A stretch of 63,990 nucleotides of DNA from Gemmatimonadota bacterium (GTDB taxonomy: Bacteria; Gemmatimonadota; Gemmatimonadetes; Gemmatimonadales; Gemmatimonadaceae): NCBI GenBank assembly GCA_016194585.1, contig JACQBG010000008.1, forward strand, positions 1 to 63,990, given 5' to 3'. Within the stretch, counting starts at the first letter, position 1. Each line of letters opens with the position of its first letter. The notes under the pieces are model-generated. The model worked only from the letters and a program-made list of their open reading frames with translations. It searched no databases and was not told the origin of the DNA. Shown in pieces: positions 7,811 through 46,463 of the stretch. Made by a program: the position numbers and the translations under genes.

Positions 7811-10800
7811 CAGTTGAACTTCTCGCCGCGCTTCACCCACTTCTCGAGGTCCTTCTCCTTCGGATCGAGCGGCGTCCCCGGGTGGATGATCGAGACCGGG
7901 CACCGTTCGGCGGCGGTCACGAGTTGCTGGAAGGTGCCGGCATGGGCGTCCTTGACGTACGCCTGCTTGTCGGCGTTATAGGCGAACATCTTCTTGTTGA
8001 GGTTGATGCACTCGTTGCAGCTCGTGCAGCGCGAGGAGTCGATGTAGGGCTCCATCGCGAGGTCGCCGTCGTCCTCGGCCGAGGCGGTGGCGGAGCCGGC
8101 GACGGCTGCGTCCGGTGCGGCTATGGGCGCGACTGCCACTGCCTTCACCGCGGCGGACGGCTGAACGACTCCTGCTACCACGGAGGACACGGAGGGCACG
8201 GAGGACTGCTGAACGGGCGCGGCTGCCGCACTCTTCTTGAACTCGGCCGTCACCGGGGGCAACGAGGCCAGCAGCTCAGCGATCGCCGTCGAGCCACCCG
8301 CCGTGTGCATCAGCCCTTCGGCGAGCCGACGCGCGATCTGCACCGGGTAGTTCGCCTTGAGGTCGGTGAGCTTCGCCTCGTACTCCGCGCGCAGGGCGGC
8401 TTCACGCGTCTGATATTCGGCGTCCACTTCCGCCGCGACCAGGTCGTGCACCGAGCCCGACACCTCGAGACCGGCCAGCTGGCGCAGTTGCGACCAGAAC
8501 TGCAGTCGCTCCTCGGCGAGCGCCGCGATCTCCGTCGTCACGCGCAGGCGGCGGAGCGTGCGGTCGGGCGCCGTGGCCCAGATGAACGGCGTCAGCCCGT
8601 CACGCTCGGCGTGCGGCTTGAGCAGGTATTCGTGGAACAGCACCATGGAGTCGTCCCACTTCGTCGCGGGGACCTCCTTGAAGTGCTTCTTGAACCGGGC
8701 CTCGGTGGCGGCCCAGTCGGCGATGGTGAGCGGGAGCTCCATCTCCTGCTCGGCGCCGGCGGCGTCGACGTACGTCAGCTGGTACGTCGGCCACGGCGTG
8801 TCGAGCGCCGGATTCCCCTCGAGCGTGAGGCAGTCGGCGATGTTCGAGCCGGCGTCGGGATCGTACGTAAGGAACGGGAAGGCACGGCTCTCGAGCGCCA
8901 ATCGCGCGGCGTGCTGCGACCAGTCGTCGGCGAGCCCATGCTCCACCGGGCACGGCGTGTAGACGTTGATAAGCACCGGACGCCGCTTCTTCAGCCCCTT
9001 GAGTACGCCGGCGATGAGGTGCGACGCCGAGGCCTGCGATGACTGGTGCACGTACACGCCGCGGTGCGCGATGGCGATATAGGCGAGTTCCTTGCGCACT
9101 TCCTTCTTGCCGTGCTGCGCCTTGCCCCACGCCGCCATGTCGGAAACCTGCCCCGTGTACCCCGACGTGCAGCTCTGGCCGCCGGTGTTCGAGTACACCT
9201 GCGTGTCGAGCACCACCACGCGCAGCGGCTTGCCGCTCGCGAGCAGGCGGGAGAGGTTCTGGAAGCCGATGTCGAGCATCGCGCCGTCGCCGCCCATCGA
9301 GAGGATGGGCGGGCAGAGCGCGAACTCCTCGTCGGTGAAGCCCTGCCAGTCGAGGTTGGCGAGTTGCGGCTCGTGCGCCGCGGCGTCGTAGGTGCCGTCG
9401 CGCAGCAACGTCGCGCGCCGCACGGCCACGAAGCCGTCGGCCATCTTGCGCATGTGCGCCTCGAACACGCCGATCGCGACGCTCGGGGCGTCCTGGAACA
9501 GGTGGTTCACCCAGGGGAACGGATATGGATTGTACGGATACGTGCTCCCCCACACCGAGCTGCACCCGGTGCTGTTGGCCATGCCGAGCGAGGCGCGCCC
9601 CTTGCCGCTGGGCCCCTCGAGATAGCGCCACTTGAGGTCCTTCAGTTCGTGCACCGACTTGGTGATGAGCGAGATGCGCAGGTGCGCGTCGCTCGAGACG
9701 TTCACCTTCACGGCGCCGTTGGACTTCGCGGCGGCCTCGATGTCGGCGCCCTTGGCGAGCAGCGTGCGCGCCTGCTCCTCGAGGTCGGCGATGAGCTGGT
9801 CGATGTAGGCGACCCGCTGGTCGACGTGCGGCTGCATCCAGGCGTAGACCGACGAGACGATGAGGTGCACGGCCGTCTTCTCGCCGCACCCCATGCAGGC
9901 GCCGTCGCCGCCCACCATCGAGCGGTAGGTGTGCTTCTTGAGCAGCAGCGACGAGAGCACGCCGATGCCGTCGTCCACGTCGGAGACGTTCACGAACCGG
10001 TCGTCGGTGTCGGGGAGGCGCGTCCAGAACGACCAGTTGCGGCGCAGCCTCGCGAGGTTGGTGTCGTCCTGCTTCACCGTCTTCAGCGCGCCGTCGGGGC
10101 ACACCGCGACGCACAGGTTGCATCCCTTGCACGCCTCGGGGTTGATCGTGACGGAGAGCAGCCCGCCGTTCCCCTTGAGCTTCGCCTCGCGGGCGTCGAA
10201 GAACGCCTTCGTGCGCGCCACCGGGAACTCGGCGATGCGTGCCTGCACCGCCGCGAACTCAACGTCGGTCTCGGCGCGGCGCGTGGCGTCCCAGTTCATC
10301 TTGCCGGCGACGCCGGCGTACGCCGTCGCGAACGCGTCGCTCACCTTGAGCGCCGGCTCCTTGGCGAGCAGCCGGTGCGTCTCCTTCGCCCACGGCTTCA
10401 CCACCGGACGCAGCCGGTCGATCACGCGCGACTGCGCCGCCTCGGCGAGCGCCGCGTTGATGATCTCCTCTTCGGTGTTCACGAGTCCCGGGATGGCGGC
10501 GTCGGGACACTGCGTCCAGCACTGCGCGCACCCCGTGCAGTTCTCGGCGAGGAACTCCGGCACTTCGAGGCGCACGCCGCTCATGTCACGCACCGCGCCC
10601 GTCGCGGCCGGGATCGCGCTGAACGCGGCGAACGGGTCGGCGATCGGGTCCTGGCCGAGCGCGCAGAGCGTGCACACCTGTTCCCAGAAGCGTCCCGGGT
10701 TCCCCGGGCCCTGCTCGGCGTTGTCGGACGCCATCGTCGACGGCTGGTGCGGCACGGCCGTGTTGACCGTCACCCCTTCGTCGCCGCCGACCGGCACCAT

Positions 10801-30700: not shown

Positions 30701-31203
30701 TCTTACTGCTTTGCCACGGATGTTCACGGATGACCGCCGGATCTTCACGGAGGACATCTTGGGAACATCGGTCGCGGAGGCACGGCTCCTTGCCGGCGAC
30801 GTCACGCGCGAGATCATCGGAGCGTTCTTCGATGTATACAACGAACTCGGTTACGGGTTTCTCGAGAACGTTTATCAGCGGGCGCTGCCGGTCGCCCTCG
30901 CGGCACGCGGGATCCGCCTCGAGCGAGAGGTGCCGATGCGCATCTCGTTTCGCGGCGAGTCGGTCGGTGATTACCGGGCGGATCTCATCGTCGACGGGCG
31001 AGTCGTGGTAGAGATCAAGGCCGTGGAGAGGCTCGTCTCGGCGCACGAGGCGCAGCTCTTGAACTACCTCCGCGCGACCGGCCTGCGCGTGGGCCTAATT
31101 CTGAACTTCGGCCCCCAAGCGACGTTCCGCCGGCTCATGCGCTGAGCGTCGCTGGAATCTCGTCGGATCCGCCGTCCATCCGTGTGATCCGTGGCCAGCA
31201 GTC
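30701..31203. mobile_element. Inverted-repeat element carrying the GxxExxY gene
   Basis: The left end, CCACGGATGTTCACGGATG (30714-30732), and the right end, CATCCGTGTGATCCGTGG (31177-31194), are inverted copies with one gap. Outside them are ACTGCT (30705-30710) and its complement AGCAGT (31197-31202). The unit of about 0.5 kb contains just one gene, and its ribosome-binding site lies near the left end. Four gene-less intergenic copies with the same ends occur in this window. Confidence 0.65.
30759..31145 (+). CDS. GxxExxY protein (PD-(D/E)xK nuclease-like)
   Basis: The 128-residue product has the naming motif GFLENVY at residues 33-39. A nuclease-like core follows: YRADLIVDGRVVVEIKA, with Asp75 and Glu85-Ile-Lys87 placed as in PD-(D/E)xK enzymes, and then LLNYLRATGLRVGLILNFG. 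The family (TIGR04256) is known for many paralogues per genome and no settled function. I chose TTG at 30759 because GGAGG lies five bases upstream and the length then matches the family. In-frame ATGs at 30693 and 30720 would translate through the left inverted repeat. Confidence 0.8.
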   Translation: MGTSVAEARLLAGDVTREIIGAFFDVYNELGYGFLENVYQRALPVALAARGIRLEREVPMRISFRGESVGDYRADLIVDGRVVVEIKAVERLVSAHEAQLLNYLRATGLRVGLILNFGPQATFRRLMR

Positions 31204-36590: not shown

Positions 36591-36712
36591 CACTGCAGAA
36601 CCACGGATGTTCGCAGAGCACGGTCCGATCCATTCGGATCCTTCGCGCGGTATGGCGTCGCAGCGATCGGTGCCGATCCGGCCAGATCCGCGAAGATCCG
36701 TGGTTCTGCTTT
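36591..36712. repeat. ACGGAT inverted-repeat copy B
   Basis: GCAGAACCACGGAT (36595-36608) and ATCCGTGGTTCTGC (36696-36709) form a perfect 14-base inverted repeat about 115 bases across. The interior contains further GATCC/CGGATC pieces but no gene. It lies between the Kir gene and the serine hydrolase gene. Confidence 0.65.
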
Positions 36713-38315: not shown

Positions 38316-38354
38316 TTACTGCGTTGCCTCGAATCCGTGAGATCCGTGGCCAGC
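38316..38354. repeat. ACGGAT repeat copy C, collapsed
   Basis: TTACTGCGTTGCC (38316-38328), which matches a left outer end, is followed within a few bases by a right end, ATCCGTGAGATCCGTGG (38333-38349). The interior is missing, so this looks like a deletion remnant. It lies between two convergent genes. Confidence 0.5.
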
Positions 38355-44023: not shown

Positions 44024-44185
44024 ACTACAACGGCCTTGCCACGGATCGCACGGATCGTGGGTACAGATCGGCACGGATGAACTGAACGGGGGAACGACAC
44101 CGCGCGACGTGCGCCGTCGTTCCCCCGTTTCTTGATCCCGGCGCATCCGGCAGTTGGATCCGTGAGATCCGTGGCAAAGTCGTTC
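44024..44185. repeat. ACGGAT inverted-repeat copy D with internal hairpin
   Basis: The left end, CCACGGATCGCACGGATCG (44039-44057), and the right end (44156-44174) match as inverted repeats at 17 of 19 positions. Inside is a 12-base stem, CGGGGGAACGAC (44087-44098) with its complement (44116-44127), and a 17-base loop that has its own GCGC pair. There is no gene inside. The element lies between the DUF486 gene and the GNAT gene. Confidence 0.7.
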
Positions 44186-46309: not shown

Positions 46310-46463
46310 TTACGGCGTTCCCACGGATCGCACGGATCGACAGCAAGATCGGCACGGATGAATGAGTGGGGGAACGACGGCGAGATCCGCCGGCTGTCGT
46401 TCCCCCTGGTGCTTCTCCGTGAAGATCCGTGCTCTCGATCCGTGTGATCCGTGGCCAGCAGTT
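46310..46463. repeat. ACGGAT inverted-repeat copy E with internal hairpin
   Basis: Ends CCACGGATCGCACGGATCG (46321-46339) and its inverted partner (46436-46454) agree at 18 of 19 positions. The inner stem GGGGGAACGAC (46368-46378) / GTCGTTCCCCC (46396-46406) is the same sequence as in copy D. The outer right edge GGCCAGCAGT matches that of the GxxExxY-bearing copy. It lies between two convergent genes. Confidence 0.7.

Follow-up and report, generated by a model that had tools for sequence, protein, structure and literature searches.

The closest described relatives of the arrangement analyzed here are the REP sequences and REPINs with their RAYT genes. The authors of a 2021 paper knew of no sequence population other than REPINs that is stably maintained within prokaryotic genomes (PMC8049555). 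These systems comprise gene-less, intergenic palindromes made of two inverted repeats and occurring in several flavours per genome, as well as a dedicated enzyme gene beside the same repeats, and they persist for a long time (PMC3116915, PMC8049555). All of these features are held in common with the system described below. In the window (the whole stretch of DNA analyzed, i.e., 63,990 nucleotides from a Gemmatimonadota genome), an enzyme gene of the GxxExxY family is flanked by repeats, and gene-less inverted doublets are dispersed. The two systems differ in their enzymes and in their repeats. RAYT (TnpA-REP) is a tyrosine (HUH) transposase, whereas GxxExxY is a predicted PD-(D/E)xK nuclease of the Cas4/RecB/Hjc group; only nuclease families, and no HUH Y1 transposases, matched GxxExxY, and its modeled fold is of the PD-(D/E)xK type. 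The arms of GxxExxY elements consist of tandem 7-bp words at helical spacing, whereas a REP arm is a single REP palindrome, and the GxxExxY words vary widely between lineages, unlike REP.

MITEs and their autonomous DDE transposons also have inverted ends common to autonomous and gene-less copies. However, the GxxExxY element holds only the GxxExxY gene, without a DDE transposase, there is no visible target-site duplication, and elements are swapped in place while their sites stay fixed. PD-(D/E)xK homing endonucleases are encoded by small genes embedded in their own recognition site, and replacement is of the conversion type. The GxxExxY gene similarly lies inside its presumed recognition site, and in-place replacement is consistent with homing, but its presumed targets form a family of many dispersed copies, some of them gene-less, whereas homing concerns one intron or intein site. 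The likeness to Cas4, archaeal Hjc and RecB nuclease domains comprises the predicted fold, the E-D-ExK-QxxxY residues and a weak Cas4 profile match, which was the only match given by PADLOC. In contrast to these proteins, GxxExxY is a stand-alone polypeptide of ~110-130 aa, encoded between repeat arms. In the open-access literature, we found GxxExxY, TIGR04256 and PF13366 in passing mentions only, and found no description of these repeats or of palindromic repeats with a nuclease; the link between GxxExxY and repeats is apparently undescribed in that literature.

The gene-bearing element and its gene-less copies

The gene and inverted ends proposed in the initial annotation were both confirmed (Table 1), the ends being CCACGGATGTTCACGGATG at 30714-30732 and CATCCGTGTGATCCGTGG at 31177-31194. 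Outside them lie TTACTGC (30703-30709) on the left and, on the right, a GCAGT ending at 31202. The left arm reads TTACTGCTTTGC-CACGGATGTT-CACGGAT... and the right arm, inverted, reads ...ATCCGTGTG-ATCCGTG-GCCAGCAGT, i.e., the GxxExxY gene is placed between inverted arrays of the 7-bp word CACGGAT, with one repeat per approximately one helical turn. The last repeat word supplies a GGAGGAC that is likely to be the Shine-Dalgarno sequence of the gene. Three gene-less copies that had also been proposed (36595-36709, 44039-44174 and 46321-46454) were found to have the same ends and to fold into strong hairpins, with no shuffled sequence folding equally well. At a fourth (38316-38354), the outer end and the right array were present, but the left array had gone, leaving a deletion derivative. 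In the gene-bearing copy the outer ends are unchanged, and the gene occupies the place of the central GGGGGAACGAC hairpin.

Table 1. Features of the gene-bearing element and of the gene-less copies in the window
Feature	Position	Strand	Remarks
Whole gene-bearing element	30703..31203	+	outer ACTGC/GCAGT ends, inverted CACGGAT arrays, central GxxExxY gene
Left arm: TTACTGCTTTGC + CACGGATGTT CACGGATGACCGCCGGATCTT CACGGA	30703..30751	+	
Likely Shine-Dalgarno sequence GGAGGAC	30749..30755	+	putative, read from the sequence
GxxExxY gene, predicted PD-(D/E)xK nuclease	30759..31145	+	TTG start, 128 aa, TGA stop
Right arm: inverted CACGGATCACACGGAT array plus GCAGT end	31167..31203	-	
Gene-less hairpin element, same ends	36590..36713		fold z -5.6
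Deletion derivative: left outer end TTACTGCGTTGCC joined to right array	38317..38362		fold z -0.9
Gene-less hairpin element, GGGGGAACGAC core hairpin	44025..44186		fold z -6.9
Gene-less hairpin element, GGGGGAACGAC core hairpin	46305..46466		fold z -8.1

The window protein matched the GxxExxY profiles PF13366 and TIGR04256 with E values of 8e-42 and 9e-40, passing the curated cut-offs of both (135.7 bits against 35 for TIGR04256, and 142.7 against 22 for PF13366). In an alignment of 24 diverse members, E36, D75, K87 and Y103 were invariant and E85 and Q99 nearly so, the active-site pattern of the window protein being E36, D75, E85xK87, Q99xxxY103. By a simple pattern search, 151 of 192 loci had all of the catalytic motifs. 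An AF2 model of the protein (pLDDT 92) was matched by Foldseek to Cas4 (4ic1, E 7e-5), Hjc (2wcw, E 5e-4) and also lambda-type exonucleases. The conserved residues and the matching predicted fold bear out the earlier assignment to a PD-(D/E)xK-like family and, as judged from sequence and model, the product is a member of the PD-(D/E)xK nuclease superfamily, within the Cas4/RecB/Hjc group. PHROGs yielded a single weak match, for one of three proteins, and when PDB sequences were searched with a profile, there was no relative at a useful E value. In one close pair of GxxExxY genes the dN/dS ratio was 0.11, indicating purifying selection, i.e., that the gene is maintained in that pair.

A genome-wide search for the repeat, as suggested in the initial annotation, yielded 43 matches to a two-word array in the whole genome, compared with 0 for a reversed-pattern control. 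Using a 17-mer with three mismatches allowed, there was modest enrichment in the window alone (8 matches, with 3.2 expected). Stacking of 36 CACGGAT-type ends gave the consensus AACKGCYKKGC-CACGGATYTCACGGAT...CACGGATgaa..TGGGGGAACGACnGC, which begins at AACKGC, ~12 bases outside the first word. The element borders were taken from this consensus, the flanks at the sites lacking the element in G063, G083 and relatives of G195 being too diverged to give exact borders. Two of the three GxxExxY genes in the source genome are flanked by repeats, one with CACGGAT ends and one with degenerate CGCGGAT ends, but no recognizable flanking arrays were found at the third, on contig 33. A CACGGAG-type array (CCACGGAGGACACGGAGGGCACGGAGGACTGC) at 8178-8203 of the window represents a second array family of the source genome, in which no gene-bearing copy of that family was found. 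An Rfam search gave 0 matches.

Arrays at GxxExxY loci across phyla

The GxxExxY family was present in 96 of 298 genomes of Gemmatimonadota. A scan of named genomes yielded 80 loci in a wide range of phyla, among them cyanobacteria, Bacteroidota, Planctomycetota, Verrucomicrobiota, Proteobacteria, Acidobacteriota and Chloroflexota, as well as the archaeon Methanoculleus; the query was from one subfamily, because the diversity of the 24-sequence alignment made it unsuitable for scanning contigs, and this global set is biased toward that subfamily. Eight plasmid records, all predicted to be non-mobilizable, carried the gene, while no relative was found in phages or in viral contigs; one paper lists a GxxExxY gene for an algal virus. 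Because plasmid records were few and the searches of phages and viral contigs revealed no relatives, the family appears, as far as searched, to be mainly chromosomal. GxxExxY is a common uncharacterized family in many bacterial phyla and one archaeon, and the link with repeats supplies a candidate substrate for it.

Inverted flanking arrays scored above the 95th percentile of shifted controls at 86% of the 80 global loci (p = 2e-29), with a median inverted-flank score of 23.5 compared with 11 in the controls, and at 45% of 109 loci in the phylum (p = 4e-6). When arrays of at least two words were required on both sides, a stricter test, they were found at 43 of 77 global loci and 1 of 135 controls, and at 33 of the 109 phylum loci and 1 of 204 controls, the majority of phylum loci being without a recognized pair. 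The words vary by locus (CACAGAG, CACGAAG, CACGGAA, CGCGGAG, CGCGAAG, ACAGGAT and others in the phylum set). They differ between lineages, yet agree at both ends of any one locus. Word distance grew with protein distance (Mantel r = 0.52, with p = 5e-4, the lowest value that the permutations allow); the correlation was 0.52 as a partial correlation controlling for GC, and 0.50 in the cross-phylum set. It is partly explained by co-inheritance of gene and ends, without specificity, and the words remained similar even between proteins so divergent that neutral flanking DNA would be expected to have lost its similarity. Spacers were 49% identical between the two arms of one locus, but 21% identical between loci with the same word, so that each arm behaves like a copy of the other. 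As the proteins vary in concert with their words, these loci provide a natural data set for the reading of DNA by a PD-(D/E)xK nuclease.

The link between arrays and gene was also evident at the level of whole genomes. The gene was carried by 28 of 31 genomes with at least six CACRRAK arrays, compared with 68 of 267 others (p = 1.5e-12), and CACAGAG arrays were abundant in 10 of 10 genomes whose gene has CACAGAG, and occurred in 6 of 24 with other words and in 0 of 8 without the gene; p values for these counts are optimistic, because related genomes were treated as independent. One genome, G080, has nine GxxExxY genes together with numerous arrays. Across 793 kb of DNA, most of it rich in arrays, tight array pairs enclosed either 10-125 bp or 427 bp, the latter being GxxExxY (two orthologues), and no other gene was found inside a tight pair; two further array pairs were several kb apart. 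Intergenic hairpins of the CACAGAG, CACGAAG, CACGGAT and CGCGGAG types are common, and are now tied to GxxExxY. In two genomes, G250 and G272, CACAGAG and CGCGGAG arrays are very numerous (with 352 CGCGGAG arrays in G272 compared with 55 in G250), and the sole GxxExxY gene found in each has CGCGAAG. In three others (G165, G049 and G027), which hold 46, 17 and 11 CACRRAK arrays, respectively, no GxxExxY match was found; the gene may have been lost, the genome may be incomplete, or another enzyme may be at work.

Exchange of elements between relatives, and its interpretation

At the site in G304 orthologous to that of the gene-bearing element, both ends had changed jointly from CACGGAT to CGCGGAT, and the intergenic regions at this site in G063 and G083 are not long enough to contain the element. 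Elements of G195 were missing from the corresponding sites in relatives. Nested elements were seen as well. G272 and G250 had nine element sites in common over ~50 kb, mostly 90-94% identical. At eight of the nine the word had switched, being CGCGGAG, CGCAGAG or CGCGAAG in G272 and CACAGAG or CACGGAG in G250. At two of these sites (S1 and S3), the outer ends beyond the words were identical in the two genomes, whereas the words were different, and at S3, S5, S6 and S8 new CGCGGAG arms surrounded an older CACAGAG core. GxxExxY genes that share a site may diverge much further than the DNA around them: at one site the proteins were 57% identical and the flanks 91% identical. Point mutation as a simple cause of the word switches was ruled out, because the loops differ too. 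Inspection by eye of paired element ends in G000 and in G272 showed no target-site duplication.

The initial annotation had envisaged that the repeats would vary in position between strains. There was insertion or loss at some sites, but close species mostly kept the positions. Because positions were mostly kept while words and cargo were replaced, plain hopping does not appear to be the main behavior, and these comparisons point to in-place replacement over free hopping. Of all the observations, in-place replacement goes furthest beyond the initial annotation.

Our preferred reading, to which we assign a probability of about 0.6 from the sequence comparisons, is that GxxExxY and the hairpin repeats form one genetic system, similar to REPINs and RAYTs, in which the nuclease acts on the repeats and spread is conversion-like. 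The element is a palindrome. Each arm comprises 2-4 copies of a CRCNRAK-type word of 7 bp, spaced at 8-10 bp or about one turn of DNA and inverted relative to the other arm, and the center is occupied either by a short hairpin, in gene-less copies, or by the gene encoding a small, predicted PD-(D/E)xK nuclease of Cas4/RecB-like type. The nuclease would bind its cognate word array in register, perhaps with one subunit per word, and would cut or nick the element, either as a duplex or as an extruded hairpin. If the break were repaired from another copy, elements would spread and overwrite residents in place, and the outcome would be a homing-like conversion drive, with elements inserting from time to time at intergenic sites that are new. 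The GxxExxY gene would travel as cargo between its own arms. The idea of an autonomous element with MITE-like derivatives, following the logic of REP sequences and RAYTs, had been put forward in the initial annotation; it is partly supported, the association being strong in many phyla, but one of the three GxxExxY genes of the source genome having no recognizable arrays, and plain hopping not being the main behavior seen. Similarly, a nuclease that recognizes or moves the repeats is strongly supported as regards the association, but movement by the nuclease itself is something that we infer. A broader proposal, which we put at slightly short of an even chance, is that this is a second class of system, unrelated to RAYT, i.e., nuclease-maintained palindromic repeat populations in which lineage-specific word recognition would drive in-place conversion, rewriting whole populations without moving them. 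If true, there would be another stably maintained intragenomic sequence population besides REPINs, run by an unrelated enzyme.

The elements might instead be ordinary transposable elements at preferred intergenic or hairpin sites, with word changes at the same site being due to independent insertions or losses at hot spots. While this would account for the absence of the G195 elements at the corresponding sites in relatives, and for nesting, it would not account for S1 and S3 keeping identical outer ends despite their different words. It also seems unlikely because new arms outside an older core, as at S3, S5, S6 and S8, are the reverse of what insertion into a resident element would leave, and because target duplication was not seen. 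The existence of array-rich genomes without GxxExxY, and of arrays without a cognate gene, raises another alternative, in which GxxExxY would be cargo or a parasite that homes into hairpin centers, the arrays being spread by a different enzyme (an HUH/RAYT-type or DDE transposase acting in trans). The gene does occupy the place between the arms where gene-less copies have their hairpin core. However, the word tracks the protein, and GxxExxY was the only gene within tight array pairs in the 793 kb, and we consider this explanation to be unlikely.

We regard as very improbable indeed the proposal that the inverted arrays are regulatory and immobile, acting as bidirectional terminators plus a ribosome-binding sequence, with copies spread by recombination alone. 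The purine-rich words, the last of which gives GGAGG in the window, and the strong hairpins in intergenic DNA would be consistent with it, but it would leave unexplained the matching end words and mirrored spacers, the lineage-specific expansions (such as that of CGCGGAG arrays in G272 relative to G250) and the replacement in place of both words and genes.

Further palindromic elements in other genomes

At an orthologous site, there were AGTGCGTT-word arrays in G272 (L333:3221-3518; contig 73, 83221-83518) and AAGTGCTAAG-word arrays in G250 (L359:7211-7318), the G272 copy additionally containing a GTCATCCTGAGCGAAGC...AGGATCTA repeat. A palindromic element on contig 39 of G195 (L235:4722-4940), with the word AACGAGTA and the ends AACGAGTAACGAGTGAG ... 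CTCGTTACTCGTTACTCGTT, had the same architecture. When G055 and G079 (~95% identical) were compared, one had extra tandem palindromic copies beside the GxxExxY gene. At L133:1300-1640, tandem palindromic GGAGAAGCGGAG-word elements with AACTGAC ends adjoined a GxxExxY gene, and their copy number differed from that in the close relative L135.
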